Below, in pieces: positions 10,664-32,713 of a stretch of DNA of 35,906 nucleotides. Source of the DNA: a virus; IMG/VR virus record IMGVR_UViG_3300032242_000118, positions 1 to 35,906 of that record. The stretch is one strand, 5' to 3'. Positions within the stretch are counted from its first letter, which is position 1. Every line of letters begins with the position of its first letter. Position numbers and translations under genes: made by a program. The notes below the pieces were generated by a model that did no database searches, was not told the origin of the DNA, and was given only the letters and a program-made list of their open reading frames with translations.

Positions 10664-12555
10664 TGGCAGTTACCAATAACACCACCACAATTCCATCGTC
10701 GCGGGTTCCATTAACGGATGACCGCACGGGTTTGATTGCGCGTGAGTGGTATCGGTATCTCAATAACCAATACACCAAGACCAGTCAAAACGCCAACGCG
10801 GTGACTCCCGGCGACTATGGCGCGATTGGTGACGGTGCGGTTGATGACTCGGCCAGCATCCAAGCTGCGCTTAATTCTGGCTACGATGTTTACCTGCCGC
10901 CAGGACGCGTCTACGCAATTGGCACGACGCTTACGATGTCCACGCCTAATCAATCGTTTGGTGGGCCTGGAGTTCTGCGTATTGTTGGAGCAATCAACGG
11001 TCTAGAACTGATCTCGCCAACGTCTACGATTGTGACCGGCATACAGTTGGATCTGACGTTTAACTCGCCTACGCAGACTGCTGGCTGGGCGGTCTACATC
11101 AACAATAGTAGCCGCGTCAAAATCAACAAGCTGAACATCATTAGCGGCTTCGGTGGCTTGTACGTACAACAGGCCAATTGGGTAGTTGTGGACTTTATGT
11201 GGGCGTCCCTCTCCGGTCCCGGCGTTAAATGGTACGGCAACGACTCAACTCGATCTGACCTGCTGATACTTAACTCGGTGGTGGTAGATACGGGCGACAC
11301 TTACTACGGCATGGACTGGGATGGTAACTGCCATAGCCTGACGGTCAAATACCTTGGCATTGTCGGCGGCAAGGGCATGATTATCCGCAACACGGGCGGC
11401 GTGACAACTTTCCCCGCTATTGGTCGCATCGGTCAGGTTGAGGTGGACTACTCCACCGGCATCGGTGTGGAGATTCAAGCCGGTCTGGACTATGACTTTG
11501 TGATGCCCTACGTCTTGGGCGCGGCGTCTGATGGGTTCCGCATTGGAGCAGCAATTAACGCTTACGAAGTCCGCATCACTGGCGGCAAGTCTATCGGCAA
11601 CGGTGGCTACGGCATCAACAACTTGGGCGGCGTATTGTTGTACGCGGGCGATACCGCTTTGTACTCCAACAGTCTTGGTGAAATTAACGGTCAAGCGTGG
11701 AACAAATCACCTCGCCAAGCGATTGATGATAATTTTTACCTGACAACTAGCAGCAATACGCCACAAATTGTTTTTTCTCCTACAAATTTTCTTTCGTATG
11801 ACCGTACTGCCAACCAATTAAACGTTCAGATTGGCGGCACGGGAACGGCTACGTTTTCTGCTTCTGCAACGCAATCGTATGTGCCGGTTTACGCGACCGG
11901 ATTGCGTTTGCTTGGGTCTACTACCGGATACACAGCATTCTCGCCAGCAGCGTCTGGTCCGTCTGTGACGTATACGTTGCCAACGGCAATTGGAACATCA
12001 AACCAAGTTCTCAGCACAGATGGGTCTAACAATCTGTTTTGGGCAACGGTTAGCGGAGGCGGGGGCGTTACTAGCGTCGGTGTTACGTCGCCGGTTGTCA
12101 ACACAGGAACTTCAACTGCGCCTGTAATTGGGGTAAACGCAACCAACGCAAATACTGCAAACTATCTTGTTCAGCGCGATGGAAGCGGAAATTTTACCGC
12201 CGGTACTATCACGGCAACTCAGTTTACGGTTGGAACTAATTATTATCTAAATTTTTCTGGGTCAAACCCTCAACAGGTTTGGGCATCAACAAGCTATGTT
12301 TCTTATGACCGAACAAATGATCAGCTAAACTCAATTATTGCTGGTAACGGAATCTTCAAACTTGCGGCTACCTACGCTCAATCGCTCAAGCCTCTTGTCC
12401 TTCCTCAGTACACAGTGGCAACGCTTCCGTCTGGCATTCAGGGGGCAACTGCTTACGTTACAGACGCCTCTGCCCCTGCGTATAATACAACCGTCGTTGG
12501 TGGCGGAACATCAGTTGTCCGTGTCTTCTTTGACGGAACCAGTTGGAAAACCTGA
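10663..12555 (+). CDS. Tailspike 1, right-handed beta-helix (pectate-lyase-like fold)
   Basis: The 630-residue protein has an N-terminal virion-binding part (residues 1-45), then DYGAIGDGAVDDSASIQAAL (about 50-70), the usual entry into phage beta-helix tailspikes. A long beta-helix follows to about residue 345. The C-terminal part holds fibre-like repeats (FLSYDRTANQLN / YVSYDRTNDQLN) and ends in YTVATLPSG...VVGGGTS...FFDGTSWK. Such spikes bind and often cleave surface polysaccharide; catalytic residues cannot be assigned by eye. The beta-helix is clearly paralogous to the next gene. The start overlaps the gp10-like stop (TAATG). Confidence 0.85.
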   Translation: MAVTNNTTTIPSSRVPLTDDRTGLIAREWYRYLNNQYTKTSQNANAVTPGDYGAIGDGAVDDSASIQAALNSGYDVYLPPGRVYAIGTTLTMSTPNQSFGGPGVLRIVGAINGLELISPTSTIVTGIQLDLTFNSPTQTAGWAVYINNSSRVKINKLNIISGFGGLYVQQANWVVVDFMWASLSGPGVKWYGNDSTRSDLLILNSVVVDTGDTYYGMDWDGNCHSLTVKYLGIVGGKGMIIRNTGGVTTFPAIGRIGQVEVDYSTGIGVEIQAGLDYDFVMPYVLGAASDGFRIGAAINAYEVRITGGKSIGNGGYGINNLGGVLLYAGDTALYSNSLGEINGQAWNKSPRQAIDDNFYLTTSSNTPQIVFSPTNFLSYDRTANQLNVQIGGTGTATFSASATQSYVPVYATGLRLLGSTTGYTAFSPAASGPSVTYTLPTAIGTSNQVLSTDGSNNLFWATVSGGGGVTSVGVTSPVVNTGTSTAPVIGVNATNANTANYLVQRDGSGNFTAGTITATQFTVGTNYYLNFSGSNPQQVWASTSYVSYDRTNDQLNSIIAGNGIFKLAATYAQSLKPLVLPQYTVATLPSGIQGATAYVTDASAPAYNTTVVGGGTSVVRVFFDGTSWKT

Positions 12556-28684: not shown

Positions 28685-28794
28685 CAGATGCCTCCCGACA
28701 GGCCGTAGAACAAACAAGCGCCAGCGGCAACGCCAATCAGCAGCGACACAATCGCAGTGACCCAGAGCGGGTCTTGGTAGTCTTTGTCTTCCAT
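28684..28794 (-). CDS. 36-residue single-span membrane protein
   Basis: The product begins MEDKDYQDPLWVTAIVSLLI and ends GLSGGI: an acidic N terminus and one membrane span. A strong ribosome site (AAGGAG, 6 nt) precedes the ATG, and the stop overlaps the Sak4-like start (TGATG), which together support a real gene. It is expressed with recombination genes; its purpose is unknown. A membrane role early in infection, for example in superinfection exclusion, is only a guess. Confidence 0.65.
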   Translation of the reverse strand: MEDKDYQDPLWVTAIVSLLIGVAAGACLFYGLSGGI

Positions 28795-28809
28795 CTCTAA
28801 CTCCTTGGT

Positions 28810-28825
28810 GGGGGCCGAGGCCCCC
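28810..28825 (-). other. G/C-rich hairpin upstream of the 36-residue gene
   Basis: GGGGGCC and GGCCCCC flank a 2-nt centre and would form a stem of five or more G-C pairs in RNA. It lies between the first gene of the leftward operon and the ribosome site of the second. It has no T tract on the - strand, so an mRNA-stability or translation-control role is more likely than termination. Confidence 0.5.
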
Positions 28826-28846
28826 GGTTCGGTTTACTCAGGCTTT

Positions 28847-29113
28847 TCAAATCATTTCGTACTTGGCGATGAGAACTTTCAACTTGCGAACGTCCTGCAT
28901 TGCAAGGCGTTCCTCGGCTGCACCATATTCACCGTTAAGTTCATCGTTGTTGATGTGGCCGCTCTCGAAATACGTTGACAGAACGTACTTGGCTTCATTG
29001 ACGATTTCGTAATCTGTGTAATCCTCAATCTCCTTGCCATCGTCATCGCTGATGTTCAAGAGTGTCTGGTGCAACTGACGAATCTTGAATGCTGCTTTTA
29101 TGATTGCTCTCAT
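28847..29113 (-). CDS. First gene of the leftward operon, acidic, unknown
   Basis: The 88-residue protein is helical, with a basic N terminus (MRAIIKAAFKIRQLHQTLLN), an acidic centre (DDDGKEIEDYTDYEIVNEAK) and a C-terminal helix. ATG 29113 has GAGGTG 6 nt upstream; an upstream extension to 29149 would run toward the promoter and is unlikely. As the first product from the leftward promoter it may take over host functions or block a host defence, but no motif shows this. Confidence 0.7.
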   Translation of the reverse strand: MRAIIKAAFKIRQLHQTLLNISDDDGKEIEDYTDYEIVNEAKYVLSTYFESGHINNDELNGEYGAAEERLAMQDVRKLKVLIAKYEMI

Positions 29114-29169
29114 CTCGGTCACCTCTGTGTTGCTGCACCGTCTGGCCATCAGTTCGTGCAGTTGTTGCT

Positions 29170-29198
29170 ACTTTACCCGTTTCACTTTAGAGTGTCAA
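29170..29198 (-). promoter_or_regulatory. Leftward early promoter (TTGACA, 17 bp, TAAAGT)
   Basis: On the - strand the -35 box TTGACA (29198-29193) is a perfect consensus, the spacer is 17 bp and the -10 box TAAAGT (29175-29170) matches four of six positions. Transcription would start near 29163, about 50 nt before the first leftward gene. It drives the recombination/helicase operon. Confidence 0.8.
29183..29194. promoter_or_regulatory. Candidate operator, palindrome CACTTTAGAGTG
   Basis: A 12-bp imperfect palindrome (five of six pairs match) fills most of the spacer of the leftward promoter and touches its -35 box. It lies 34 bp upstream of the cro-like gene. Binding here would block the leftward promoter, so it is the best candidate site for the Cro-like protein. 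A similar 13-bp palindrome occurs at 31328-31340. Confidence 0.55.
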
Positions 29199-29227
29199 CA
29201 GAAAGTTTCAACCGGAGTGGAAAAAAA

Positions 29228-29401
29228 GTGACAACAGAGGAAGCGATCCAGCATTTTGGTAGCCTCAAGCGGCTAGCAGATGCGCTTGGGGTCTGGCCCC
29301 AGGTGATCTATAGGTGGGGCGAACACCCGCCAATGGCGCGTCAGTACGAGATAGAAGTCAAGACAGAGGGGAAGTTGCGTGCAGACCATGAGCAAGATTG
29401 A
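29228..29401 (+). CDS. cro: Cro-like transcription regulator (P22 Cro type)
   Basis: The 57-residue protein has the P22 Cro layout: EAIQHFGSLKRLADALGVWP then QVIYRWGEHPP, a helix-turn-helix with an early HFG motif, and a short C-terminal YEIEVKTEGKL strand like the EIVTAGAL part of P22 Cro. It would repress early promoters by binding short palindromes. The start is GTG 29228 with GGAG about 10 nt upstream. It faces away from the leftward operon and overlaps the replication gene. No CI-type partner was found. Confidence 0.82.
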   Translation: MTTEEAIQHFGSLKRLADALGVWPQVIYRWGEHPPMARQYEIEVKTEGKLRADHEQD

Positions 29402-31253
29402 AGCAGCGCTGCGATATGCAGAATGGGGCTGGTGCGTCCTGCCCGTAGTACCAAACGGCAAGATCCCGGCCACCGCCCATGGCGTTAACGACGCGACCAA
29501 AGACCCAGAACAGATCAAGCGCTGGTGGGGCCAGAACCCGAACCTAAATATCGGCATTGCTTGCGGTAGCGCCAGCGGGATCGTGGTGTTTGACATCGAC
29601 CCGCGCAACGGCGGGGACCAAAGTTGGGAACGGTGGCTGTCCGATCACGGGCCTCTGCCAGACGGGGCTATGGCGTTGACCGCCGGAGGTGGGCAGCATT
29701 TCTTGGCGTTGCACGCAGATGGCGTCAGATCGTGCAAGTTAGCAGACGGTATTGATCTGCTTTCTGACGGGCGCTATTTCTTGGTGTACCCGTCAACCAT
29801 TGAGGACCGCGCCTACGAATGGGAAGCGTCCAGCGATCCGTTCGATGGCGTAGCACCAGCCAGAATTCCAGAACCTTGGATGCCACACCTTGGGCGTCGC
29901 AAGGTAGTACCGACCACCAGCGGCGATCTGATCCAAGGTAACCGTAACGATGGTTTAACTAGCCTCGCAGGTGCGATGCGTTCGTTTGGCATGACCGAAG
30001 CCGAGATCTTGGCCGCGATCAGTGTAGCTAACGAAACACGCTGCGAGATCCCACTGCCATCTAGCGAGATCAAACAGATCGCAAGATCAGTCGCACGCTA
30101 CGAACCAGAGGGCGATGTGGCGGCTAGTACGGCAATCGGCTCAGAGGCCGCAGAAGCGCTTTTGGCAGAGCCGCCCACATCAGACTACTTCCTGACCCGC
30201 GCAACAAGCTTCTTGGGCCAACCAAGCCCTGTGCCGTGGATTGTGAAGGGGTGGTTGCCTGCATATGCCACAACCATGATGTACGGCGAGTCAGGAGTTG
30301 GCAAAACGTTCGTTGCCTTGGACATGGCCTGCTGCATCGCCAGCGGTATTGACTGGCATGGCATCCGGACCAAACCCGGCATCGTGGTGTATTTGGCAGG
30401 CGAGGGTAACTACGGGATGCGGCAACGCGTGGCTAGCTGGTGCAAAGCAAAGGGTGTCCAGTCTTTGGACAACCTTCTGATCAGCAACAAGGCGCTGGAT
30501 ATGGACGCACCAGGCGCAGCAGCGCAGGTAATCGCGGCAGTGCGGGCGCTGACGTCAGAACCAGTGGCACTGGTCAACATTGATACGTTAAATAATCATA
30601 TGAGCGGCGATGAGAACTCAGCCAAAGACACGCGGGCGATGATCAATGCTTGCAACGTGGTCTCAATGGCTCTCAGTGCCACGACCATGTTGATCCATCA
30701 CCTAGGACACAACAGCGAGGCCAAACAGCGTGCGCGAGGTTCTAGCGCGTGGCGCGGGGCATTGGACGCGAGCATCTTGGTTCACGGTAAAAGCCACGAG
30801 ATCATTGTTAGCTGCACCAAGCAGAAAGACGCGGCAGAACCAGCAGATCGGTTTGGATGCCTGAGTTCAGTGGATCTGGGTTGGCAGGATGAAGATGGGT
30901 TGCCGCTACCTGGTGCCGTGTTCGAGATGTTCCAAGAGGGTGATCTGCGTATTCCTACTCCCAAGGAGGACAAGTTAGCAGAGCACAAGGTCAACTTGGA
31001 GCGGGCCTGGTTTGTTGGCGGTGCAGAGATTGTCAACAACCAGCCGTACATCTCACGCGAGGCGTTTAAGACGTTCCTGCTTGAGCAGGGTGTCAAAACC
31101 ACAGTGGTCGATCAGCACCTAAAGGCTTCAGCCAGATCTGGGATGATCATCAAGGATCTAACGGATGCTCAAATAATAGGCAAACACGATAAAGGGTGGC
31201 TGGTTAAAGATACAGTGTTGGCGTCTAAACTCATTCTAAAAGTTAGTCCGTAA
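29379..31253 (+). CDS. Primase-polymerase and RepA-like helicase fusion, replication protein
   Basis: The 624-residue protein has an N-terminal prim-pol domain: the catalytic FDID acidic motif (71-74), TAGGGQHFLAL (101-111) and DGRYFLVYPS (130-139). A helical primase C-terminal region (about 185-240) follows. The second half is a RecA-fold helicase with Walker A GESGVGKT (303-310) and a Walker B strand VALVNIDTL. A C-terminal winged-helix-like tail (about 540-615) could bind the origin. It would both prime and unwind phage DNA. GTG 29379 has GAGGGG in range; ATG 29388 is an alternative. It overlaps cro by 23 nt. Iteron-like repeats begin at its stop codon. Confidence 0.9.
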   Translation: MQTMSKIEAALRYAEWGWCVLPVVPNGKIPATAHGVNDATKDPEQIKRWWGQNPNLNIGIACGSASGIVVFDIDPRNGGDQSWERWLSDHGPLPDGAMALTAGGGQHFLALHADGVRSCKLADGIDLLSDGRYFLVYPSTIEDRAYEWEASSDPFDGVAPARIPEPWMPHLGRRKVVPTTSGDLIQGNRNDGLTSLAGAMRSFGMTEAEILAAISVANETRCEIPLPSSEIKQIARSVARYEPEGDVAASTAIGSEAAEALLAEPPTSDYFLTRATSFLGQPSPVPWIVKGWLPAYATTMMYGESGVGKTFVALDMACCIASGIDWHGIRTKPGIVVYLAGEGNYGMRQRVASWCKAKGVQSLDNLLISNKALDMDAPGAAAQVIAAVRALTSEPVALVNIDTLNNHMSGDENSAKDTRAMINACNVVSMALSATTMLIHHLGHNSEAKQRARGSSAWRGALDASILVHGKSHEIIVSCTKQKDAAEPADRFGCLSSVDLGWQDEDGLPLPGAVFEMFQEGDLRIPTPKEDKLAEHKVNLERAWFVGGAEIVNNQPYISREAFKTFLLEQGVKTTVVDQHLKASARSGMIIKDLTDAQIIGKHDKGWLVKDTVLASKLILKVSP

Positions 31254-31354
31254 CAACCGTAACACGCCGTAACACGGCGTAACATGTTACGGCGGCAAAG
31301 GCGATTTTACCGTAACGTAACGTAACACACTCTTAGAGTGTTACGGTGTTACGG
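31249..31354. repeat. Iteron cluster, putative replication origin
   Basis: CGTAAC occurs at 31249, 31258, 31268, 31278, 31311, 31316 and 31321, and its complement GTTACG at 31286, 31340 and 31348. The first four have 9-10 bp spacing, about one helical turn. 31278-31291 is a perfect 14-bp palindrome, and 31328-31340 is CACTCTTAGAGTG. The 213-bp stretch from 31254 to 31466 has no gene. An A-rich stretch follows (31400-31440). Position after the replication gene and repeat spacing suggest an origin; no binding protein is proven. Confidence 0.7.
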
Positions 31355-31408
31355 TACGATGCGGGTCGATACGGTGCGTGAAGGTTTCACTTTGAGGAGA
31401 AAATTGAG

Positions 31409-31437
31409 TTGAAGAAAAAAGATCAGCAAACTAAGAT
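31409..31437 (+). promoter_or_regulatory. Candidate rightward promoter for the terminase / late block
   Basis: TTGAAG (31409-31414), a 17-bp spacer and TAAGAT (31432-31437) match four of six positions in each box. It lies 30 bp before the next start and after the iteron cluster. It is the only promoter-like match I could find before the terminase genes, so it may drive the late block. Confidence 0.5.
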
Positions 31438-31466
31438 AGGGTTTGTACTAAGGGGGAAGGAAAGAA

Positions 31467-31781
31467 GTGAAGAGACAGTATGCCGGGAACGATCCGGGGG
31501 CAGGATGGAAAGCTGAGTTGCAGATTGAGGATGAAGGTTTGGTCTGGAACCTGTTCACCAGGATGACAGACCCAACCTTGCGCTGGTTGTCAGTCAAACT
31601 GGCCGCAGTTGGCAAGGCCCCGCAGAAAGCAAACTATTGGCTTGCATGGGATAGGAATAAACAAAGATTGATTAGCAGAAATGCAGATTTGGAATTGCTT
31701 TGTGAAAGCCGCAATCAATTGCATGAATTGCTAATTGAAGTTTTGAAACAAAGGTGGATTAGCGATGGCCCTAAACAATAG
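31467..31781 (+). CDS. Unknown protein, 104 residues, between origin and terminase
   Basis: The protein is mixed-charge, with Trp-rich segments (GWKAELQIEDEGLVWNLF; PQKANYWLAWDRNKQRLISR) and a helical C-terminal half (ELLCESRNQLHELLIEVLKQ). GTG 31467 has AAGGAAAG at a good distance. It overlaps the next small gene by 17 nt. No membrane segment or known motif was seen. Its place just upstream of the terminase genes suggests packaging or control of late genes, but this is only position. Confidence 0.65.
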   Translation: MKRQYAGNDPGAGWKAELQIEDEGLVWNLFTRMTDPTLRWLSVKLAAVGKAPQKANYWLAWDRNKQRLISRNADLELLCESRNQLHELLIEVLKQRWISDGPKQ

Positions 31782-31944
31782 TTACAGTCCAGCAGTTGGG
31801 GATGGAGGAATGGAATCATCACAATCCTCGCGCGCGCGTAGAAACGCTCATGGCGCTCAAACGTCGCTTGGTAATAGGGTAGGGTCGGGCAAAGGCTTGC
31901 GTCGCGTTGTAGCGCGTTCTAGAGGGCGTCAGAGGCATGGGTAA
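31765..31944 (+). CDS. 59-residue Arg-rich basic protein
   Basis: The product has a Ser/Gly-rich N terminus (MALNNSYSPAVGDGGMESSQ) and a strongly basic C-terminal half (GLRRVVARSRGRQRHG). A good ribosome site (GGTGGA, 6 nt) precedes the ATG, and the stop lies 8 nt inside the small terminase gene (ATGGGTAA), which suggests coupling. It could bind nucleic acid. It might also be a chance frame, because basic composition can arise from G/C-rich DNA. Confidence 0.5.
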   Translation: MALNNSYSPAVGDGGMESSQSSRARRNAHGAQTSLGNRVGSGKGLRRVVARSRGRQRHG

Positions 31945-32560
31945 CAAGGCTGATATGCGCGTGGCCCCAACTACTTCCCCGCCAAAACAAAAATTGGCTA
32001 AAAGTGAAAAACTGAATCAAGAAAAGAAACAGAACGGCGGGGCGCGAGAAGGCGCAGGTCGAATGCCGTTTGAACCGAACGACAAGGATCGCGAGATGGT
32101 CGAGAAGCTGGCGAATTGGGGAGTGGCCGAGCATCACATTTCGCCGCTCATTGGCGATGGCATAAGCGTCATGACGCTGCGCAAGTACTTCATGACGGAA
32201 CTGGAGCGCGGACGCGCCAAGGCGAGCGCTGGCATCGGGCAGACGCTGTTCCAGAAGGCGATGGCCGGCGACGTGGCGAGCCTGATCTGGTGGACGAAGA
32301 CGCAGATGCGCTGGACGGAAGCGCCGCGCCAGATCGAGGTGACCGGCAATATCAGCATTACCGACGCGCTAGCGCAGGCGCAGGCCAGGTTGATTGAGGC
32401 TGAGATCGTGGAGATGGACACGCCGTTACTCGGCGTAACAGATGCTGTTACGGCTGTTACGGATGTCGTTACGCCCGTTACGGTTGAGTACGTTGGGGGT
32501 AACAATGGGGGTAACGTCACCGACCGCGGTGAGGAAAACGCAATGAAATCAAGGGGTTAG
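31937..32560 (+). CDS. terS: Small terminase subunit (TerS)
   Basis: The 207-residue protein has a basic, flexible N terminus, then GGAREGAGRMPFEPNDKDRE and a DNA-binding helix-turn-helix (VEKLANWGVAEHHISPLIGD, GISVMTLRKYF). A helical oligomerisation region follows (RAKASAGIGQTLFQKAMAGD, ASLIWWTKTQMRW). It recognises the packaging site and hands DNA to the large subunit, which is the next gene. Residues 160-200 are a Val/Thr-repeat tail (VTDAVTAVTDVVTPVT) whose codons create a run of GTTAC/GTAAC repeats. The DNA here is more G/C-rich than in most of the genome. Confidence 0.85.
   Translation: MGNKADMRVAPTTSPPKQKLAKSEKLNQEKKQNGGAREGAGRMPFEPNDKDREMVEKLANWGVAEHHISPLIGDGISVMTLRKYFMTELERGRAKASAGIGQTLFQKAMAGDVASLIWWTKTQMRWTEAPRQIEVTGNISITDALAQAQARLIEAEIVEMDTPLLGVTDAVTAVTDVVTPVTVEYVGGNNGGNVTDRGEENAMKSRG
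32425..32515. repeat. GTTAC/GTAAC repeat cluster inside the 3' end of terS
   Basis: GTTAC starts at 32425, 32447, 32456, 32468 and 32477, and GTAAC at 32435, 32499 and 32511. Most are spaced 9-12 bp. The first two form an inverted repeat with a 5-bp gap. The core is the same as in the putative origin. It encodes the Val/Thr tail of the small terminase, so protein repetition could explain part of it; a packaging or second replication site is the other reading. Confidence 0.6.
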
Positions 32561-32713
32561 GTCACCGATTCGATTCCCCGTCCGGCTACCGAACCGGGTG
32601 CGGCGGGGTCCGACCTAGGGTTTTCCCGTACCGACCGAGGGGGCCGGGTAGGGCCGGCGGCGACCGGTCACGGTAACGGTGGCCCCACGCCAATTTTTTT
32701 TTTATTTTTCCAA
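32561..32713. other. G/C-rich intergenic stretch ending in a T tract
   Basis: These 153 bp between the terminase genes hold no gene. The first 130 bp are very G/C-rich compared with the rest of the genome. 32569-32590 looks like the 3' end of a tRNA (T-loop TTCGATT, 5 + 7 stem bases, ACC). Near the end a short stem (GGTG/CGCC, 32679-32692) precedes ten T (32694-32703), which is a weak terminator pattern. Another GTAAC lies at 32673. Confidence 0.6.

Follow-up and report, generated by a model that had tools for sequence, protein, structure and literature searches.

A word array behind a RepA-type primase-helicase gene of phages, very probably a replication origin whose word changes together with the C-terminal domain of the helicase

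Where does the phage represented by this DNA start to copy its genome, and which of its proteins recognises that place? The stretch that was analysed, here called the window, comprises 35,906 nucleotides (IMG/VR virus record IMGVR_UViG_3300032242_000118, positions 1 to 35,906) and contains a prim-pol/helicase gene at 29379-31253. From the stop codon of this gene on, a preliminary description made from the sequence alone had noticed ten copies of the word CGTAAC or its complement in 105 bp. The word count in the window phage confirmed these positions: ten CGTAAC/GTTACG copies lie within 31249-31353, with word starts at 31249, 31258, 31268, 31278, 31286(-), 31311, 31316, 31321, 31340(-), and 31348(-), the first copy containing the TAA stop and three of the ten being inverted. 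The spacing had also been described correctly as four copies 9-10 bp apart and three overlapping ones, since intervals of 9, 10, and 10 bp were measured between the first four copies and overlaps at 5 bp in the later trio. When the whole window was shuffled 60 times with dinucleotides preserved, the densest 6-mer in any 105-bp stretch reached 4 copies, as compared to 10 in the array. No open reading frame of at least 60 amino acids was found in 31254-31466, in agreement with the gene-free stretch noted earlier. By inspection, no distinct AT-rich block that might serve for unwinding is seen in or just past the array, which speaks rather against an origin, and 31380-31480 appears moderately A-rich. 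The parts of the array are the following.

31249..31353, no strand: iteron array of ten CGTAAC/GTTACG words (word counts, shuffles; layout kept in relatives with other words)
31278..31291, no strand: head-to-head word pair CGTAACATGTTACG, a perfect 14-bp palindrome here (in relatives inverted, with variable spacing)
31294..31304, + strand: conserved spacer GGCAAAGGCGA, CAAGGCG-like in relatives with other words (inspection)
31310..31354, + strand: hairpin region with three overlapping direct words, a stem-loop, and two inverted words (folding, comparison of stems)
31327-31339, + strand: short stem-loop ACACTCTTAGAGT within the hairpin region
31357..31364, + strand: conserved array end CGATGCGG, in many relatives CGATGTGG (inspection)

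Relatives were collected by IMG/VR scans with prim-pol queries. Nearly every related contig that reaches past the helicase gene has an array of this layout behind it. Entered in the table were non-redundant contigs in which the gene is complete and an array is present; with the array as entry condition, it is found in 81/81 of them. The contigs left out are cut near or before the gene end, except for L053, where a gene is inserted after prim-pol and no array was found in the 670 bp remaining to the contig end. In L005, L024, L030, L041, L044, and L046 a gene likewise follows prim-pol and the array is intact beyond it; this inserted gene has about 800 bp, and its start resembles PAPS-reductase-like proteins by eye. 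Most relatives share one skeleton, consisting of direct words repeated at about one helical turn, a single inverted word, the CAAGGCG-like spacer, further direct words, the hairpin, inverted words, and CGATGYGG. The 14-bp palindrome stressed in the preliminary description is exact in the window phage, but this exactness is not conserved: the head-to-head words keep their inverted orientation in relatives, while their spacing varies.

What does change is the word. Words are lineage-specific, and the 8-10 copies of an array change in concert while spacer, end motif, and layout stay. CGTAAC is found in the clade of the window and in L059, CGTACC in L060, CGTCAC in L052/L054, CGTAGC in L055 and L056/L057/L061/L159, CGTACT in L063/L141, CGATAC in L076/L082, TGGGACA or GGGGACA in the L069 group, GGTAACA in L097/L101/L102, GGTACA in L142, and GGGTACC in L145. 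On a tree of the N-terminal part of the protein the word has changed at least 11 times. Arrays of mixed content occur as well: the one of L141 combines CGTACT and CGTACC, and among the CGTACC copies of L060 a single CGTAAC is located at the stop codon, possibly as a relic of a former word. Conservation of the repeats had been proposed as a check, and the array is indeed kept in relatives, but the more distant ones carry another word in place of CGTAAC. Taking the absence of the repeats from close relatives as a refuting sign would therefore misfire, since the array persists with other words.

Another constant element is the hairpin, which separates the last direct word from the inverted one that follows. 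In 34/34 distinct inner segments its stem was longer than the mean of shuffled versions, and many different stem sequences occur among the phages with self-complementarity retained. Folding of single-stranded DNA gave z = -5.3 for the array of the window and values from -5.0 to -5.9 for the arrays of the window, L060, and L055, z scores to which the words themselves supply part of the signal. In L073 dense short CCAGGCAGCA-type repeats with Gln/Pro-rich reading frames were seen about 2.8 kb past the array (10746-11018 of that contig).

The gene that ends in the array and its surroundings upstream are characterised by the following features.

29069..29401, + strand: Cro-like regulator overlapping the prim-pol start, a conserved neighbour with the same order in named phages
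29379..31253, + strand: fused prim-pol/helicase, the proposed initiator (Pfam domains)
30963..31250, + strand: C-terminal domain, about residues 529-624, a predicted winged helix and the proposed word reader (covariation; model of the L066 homologue)
31122..31124, + strand: Lys582 codon at the end of the predicted recognition helix (aligned column Gln or Lys by word)

In the protein a prim-pol domain (residues 10-164) is followed by PriCT-1 (180-243), an AAA_25 RepA-like helicase (270-446), i.e. a helicase of the RecA fold, and a C-terminal stretch without a Pfam match. The nearest solved helicase to the helicase part is RSF1010 RepA (1G8Y, E = 0.004). A profile of the C-terminal domain compared with PDB sequences gave chance hits alone and none that was plausible. 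For the homologous domain of L066 (96 residues) a structural model was obtained with a mean pLDDT of 91 and a pTM of 0.82, in which the elements follow each other as helix, strand, helix, helix, helix, two-strand wing, and helix, which is the order of a winged helix. A Foldseek search of PDB with the C-terminal domain returned mostly winged-helix (wHTH) regulators with weak scores (E around 0.06-0.1). The fold class predicted by the model is thus likely a winged helix with no close solved relative known.

The preliminary description had pointed to the C-terminal part of the replication protein as a candidate for binding, and it is this part which changes together with the word in relatives. 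Pairs of proteins at least 95% identical over residues 1-520 were compared for the identity of their C-terminal domains. In pairs with the same word (n=181) this domain was on average 92% and at minimum 77% identical, as compared to 48-69% in pairs with different words (n=9, representing two independent switches); no pair with different words exceeded 82% in this domain. Sharp word switches at high N-terminal identity number only two. The first is seen between L052 (CGTCAC) and L055 (CGTAGC), where the identity in a sliding DNA comparison is about 90% until about 300 bp before the stop codon, falls to 53-58% in the C-terminal domain, is 65-77% in the array, and returns to 92-96% in the gene of the small terminase subunit (terS), so that domain and array differ as one block between flanks which are alike. 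In the second switch, L059/L060, the divergent stretch extends into terS. As the C-terminal domain adjoins the array, physical linkage contributes to the coupling of domain and word. TerS serves as a control for linkage because it is encoded as close to the array as the C-terminal domain is. In L052/L054 and in L055/L057 the word is the same and domain and array are kept, while TerS is exchanged. Because pairs with the same word exchange TerS and a pair matched in TerS differs in the word, TerS is excluded as the reader, and comparison of these sequences indicates that the word is very probably read by the C-terminal domain of the helicase. What the sequences support is hence an array with a conserved skeleton, words changing in concert, and a word which is coupled to the C-terminal domain and independent of TerS.

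Within the domain a single column of the whole alignment stands out. At the position of Lys582 of the window protein all 17 of 17 TGGGACA proteins have a glutamine and all 5 of 5 GGGGACA proteins a lysine; it is the only column with a single residue in each set, and it lies directly after the predicted recognition helix (helix taken from the L066 model). This makes a link between Gln or Lys at this position and T or G as first base of the word suggestive, with two changes of each trait on the tree and hence at most two independent pairs, too few for a significance test.

Arrays were also found beyond the tabled contigs. The Alteromonas phages PB15 and XX1924 have 13 and 12 copies of GGTTCA, Idiomarinaceae phage 1N2-2 has 11 copies of GGTACA, Salicola phage CGphi29 has GGGGACA, and the Manatee Spring phage MW202867 has TGGGACA. 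In PB15 and XX1924 the fusion protein is annotated with TOPRIM as the primase type and likeness to the window protein begins only at the helicase, with helicase, C-terminal domain, and array all kept. Since these TOPRIM-annotated proteins match from the helicase onward, the array goes with the helicase and the C-terminal domain and not with the type of primase. Two more distant phages with a RepA helicase also have an array, Rhizobium phage 16-3 (GCGTGACA) and Roseobacter phage CRP-831 (GTATAA), and in CRP-831 the hairpin reads AACCCTTTAGGGTT. A RepA helicase is encoded as well in a plasmid record of E. coli with a weak AGTGAG set, and no array was seen in the Polaromonas and Photobacterium plasmids or in the Manatee Spring phages MW202475 and MW202444. 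A scan of a genome collection gave six weak relatives, of which L160, a deltaproteobacterial metagenome-assembled contig with 41% identity, has a CTGAAG array. In the data searched the family looks mainly phage-borne.

From these comparisons the array is very probably the place where the phage starts to copy its genome. With a probability of about 0.78 we regard it as the replication origin, or its initiator-binding half, bound by the C-terminal domain of a self-loading primase-helicase. An iteron-type origin with an adjoining replication protein, as had been put forward before, remains the best reading, the covariation of C-terminal domain and word now speaking for it; multiple short direct repeats in non-coding DNA near the gene of the proposed initiator, by which iteron origins are recognised, are all present. 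For the steps that are inferred, from the binding of DNA through the loading of the helicase and priming at the hairpin to activity as an origin, we propose the following course. The winged-helix-like C-terminal domain would bind the word; its copies in direct orientation, about 10 bp from each other, would bring several protomers onto the same side of the DNA, and those in inverted orientation would permit two opposed assemblies. The helicase ring might then assemble on the array and open the DNA, exposing the flanking hairpin, at which the fused prim-pol domain would lay the first primers for extension by a host or phage polymerase. C-terminal domain and array would form one specificity cassette that may be replaced as a unit or retuned while the remaining protein and the skeleton stay constant.

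A turn of the GC skew had been suggested as a further check of an origin here. In the window there is no turn at the array, and the minimum is found 2.1 kb away at a junction of divergent genes. In phages a skew change is a supporting sign of an origin rather than a defining feature. In four genomes the minimum was located at a distance from the array, namely at 2.1 kb (window), 2.4 kb (PB15), 4.7 kb (CRP-831), and 13.5 kb (MW202867). The skew marks the array in none of them and is uninformative here, being confounded by gene orientation, which the minimum seems to follow. In the window the minimum lies at 28700-29400, where the divergent junction precedes the Cro-like and prim-pol genes, and PB15 has the same layout and skew position.

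Downstream of the array two further features have to be considered.

31937..32560, + strand: terminase small subunit (TerS), tested and rejected as word reader
32434..32482, no strand: second CGTAAC cluster of five copies in the 3' end of terS, overlooked in the preliminary description

The second cluster is kept in the checked loci of the CGTAAC clade of the window and absent from L059 and from the other word clades sampled. It encodes a Val-Thr repeat (VTDAVTAVTDVVTPVT), and further GGTAAC copies come after it (32434-32515 and 32672-32676 for cluster and further copies together); it could be an auxiliary binding site or merely a repeat due to the coding of Val-Thr. Between array and terS the window has a 104-amino acid reading frame (31467-31781) without a Pfam or PHROG match, in many close relatives terS follows directly after the array without this frame, and a long T-rich run (32694-32709) lies between terS and the gene of the large terminase subunit. 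In L052/L054, L055/L057, and L002/L007 the N-terminal region of TerS is exchanged while its C-terminal part is constant, which is a second, independent specificity swap beside the array. An adenine-specific DNA methyltransferase-like protein, annotated as such in MW202867, is encoded between array and terS in L007, L054, L069, and MW202867, and where this gene intervenes TerS has a different N-terminal DNA-binding region.

This neighbourhood raises the question whether the array might be a packaging site. Sites of the cos or pac type are often located in or before terS and can hold repeats, and a pac or cosB site read by TerS would fit both the many relatives in which terS starts 50-60 bp beyond the array and the second cluster inside terS. 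Against it, the TerS proteins of L052 and L055 are nearly identical and their words differ, L052/L054, L055/L057, and L002/L007 have a common word and different TerS DNA-binding regions, the array of PB15 is about 6 kb away from terS and yet beside the helicase gene, and the one of CRP-831 is beside repA and about 4 kb from terS across the record ends. As the word does not track TerS specificity, a site read by TerS is largely refuted and we consider it very improbable. The same sharp switches bear on the idea that recombination merely drags neighbours along, so that the array would accompany the C-terminal end of the gene through adjacency alone. Domain and array are contiguous, and the stretch replaced between L052 and L055 is indeed one block; adjacency leaves unexplained, however, why 8-10 copies are altered on an otherwise constant skeleton, why terS on the other side is uncoupled, and why two words which differ by one base are told apart by a single column of the protein close to the predicted recognition helix. 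Drag as the whole explanation is accordingly quite unlikely.

Strong hairpins whose stems change in sequence while self-complementarity stays would also suit an element acting as RNA, e.g. a structured 3' untranslated region or the leader of a transcript for packaging. However, pairing is not possible for all of the four direct words upstream, and yet they change in concert with the others, which is expected of binding sites for one protein; the window compared with Rfam gave no family matches, and an RNA leaves the coupling to a predicted DNA-binding domain unexplained, so that this reading has hardly any probability left. More weight has to be given to an array which is read by the C-terminal domain but acts mainly as an operator or in copy control (autoregulation, timing of late genes), with the origin elsewhere. 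Iterons have control roles in other systems, the coupling that was observed is one to a protein and not to replication, the array precedes the packaging genes, and the GC skew does not turn there. On the other side, a search of 31100-31950 for patterns of sigma-70-type promoters and of terminators was negative, though it would overlook phage promoters of other types, and the hairpin, the layout of direct and inverted words, and the place after a self-contained primase-helicase match known origins (PMC4234260, PMC7581432). We therefore regard an operator with the origin elsewhere as unlikely.

In phages with RepA helicases, C-terminal winged helix and array may form an exchangeable origin-specificity cassette with a word under diversifying selection. 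A few recognition-helix residues might then suffice to predict the word, the change of Gln to Lys at the position of 582 accompanying a change of T to G where NGGGACA begins. We put this forward tentatively, at slightly less than even odds. The diversifying pressure could perhaps be escape from origin-directed nucleases, from satellites, or from interference with replication when phages infect the same cell. How phage initiators recognise their origins has usually been learnt from few examples. The present set offers about a dozen pairs in which domain and word are matched while protein and origin skeleton are otherwise constant, and it contains near-identical phages with sharply different cassettes. 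With such pairs one can test directly which residues determine origin specificity and whether origins diversify so that interference is avoided. In addition, a word array after a RepA-type helicase gene provides a simple rule for marking candidate origins in uncultured phages.

How does this arrangement compare with known systems? Phage P4 differs in the TOPRIM primase of its alpha protein, in a helicase of the SF3 type, and in that ori and crr are separate sites, and a profile search of PDB sequences detected no similarity between the C-terminal domains. Alpha is alike in that a single polypeptide unites primase and helicase with a winged-helix domain by which origin repeats are bound (PMC4234260). 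An origin directly downstream of the initiator gene is found for SaPI Rep and SCCmec Cch2 (PMC7581432) and for pRN1 (PMC4234260), and the isolated C-terminal domain of Cch2 binds the putative SCCmec origin (PMC7581432). SaPI Rep and Cch2 resemble the phage protein as self-loading initiator helicases whose C-terminal domain recognises short iterons directly downstream of their own gene (PMC7581432). They differ in that their helicases belong to other families and reside on islands or cassettes, whereas the phage system has an AAA_25/RepA-like helicase in tailed phages, a prim-pol fusion, a hairpin that separates direct from inverted words, and a single skeleton that occurs with at least a dozen words. 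As in the SaPI/P4 type, a helicase chain with a C-terminal winged-helix domain is predicted from the model. Membership in the SaPI Rep/P4 alpha family was rejected, the helicase being AAA_25 by Pfam and nearest to RSF1010 RepA, with no plausible PDB hit for the C-terminal domain; the fused helicase would work like these proteins without being filed as a member.

The IncQ plasmid RSF1010, of whose RepA the phage helicase is a distant relative, likewise has iterons, a hexameric RepA helicase, and short stem-loops as start sites of the primase, and its RepC, RepA, and RepB' act together at the origin (PMC4234260). These are three separate proteins, as compared to one fusion here, in which the helicase chain itself would provide the domain that reads the iterons. 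Membership in the IncQ/RSF1010 group was rejected as well: a hairpin is present, and a single fused protein stands in place of separate RepA, RepB', and RepC. ORF904 of pRN1 is also a prim-pol/helicase with a C-terminal winged helix and a small regulator gene upstream, and a required stem-loop downstream of the gene changes in sequence with its fold kept; it differs in its SF3 helicase and in a large stem-loop without iterons (PMC4234260). Covariation of an initiator DNA-binding domain with the origin is known from PLE RepA, where an origin-directed phage nuclease may be behind the exchange of modules, with unrelated proteins and iterons of about 30 bp (PMC8263062). Closely related geminiviruses often differ in short iterons matched by Rep, again with unrelated proteins and with rolling circle replication (PMC12548392). 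In the open-licence papers that were searched, no description of the phage array and cassette was found. Iteron origins and the covariation of initiator and origin are already known, and what sets the phage system apart as a variant is its helicase of the RepA type, together with one skeleton on which many words occur and a cassette that is swapped.
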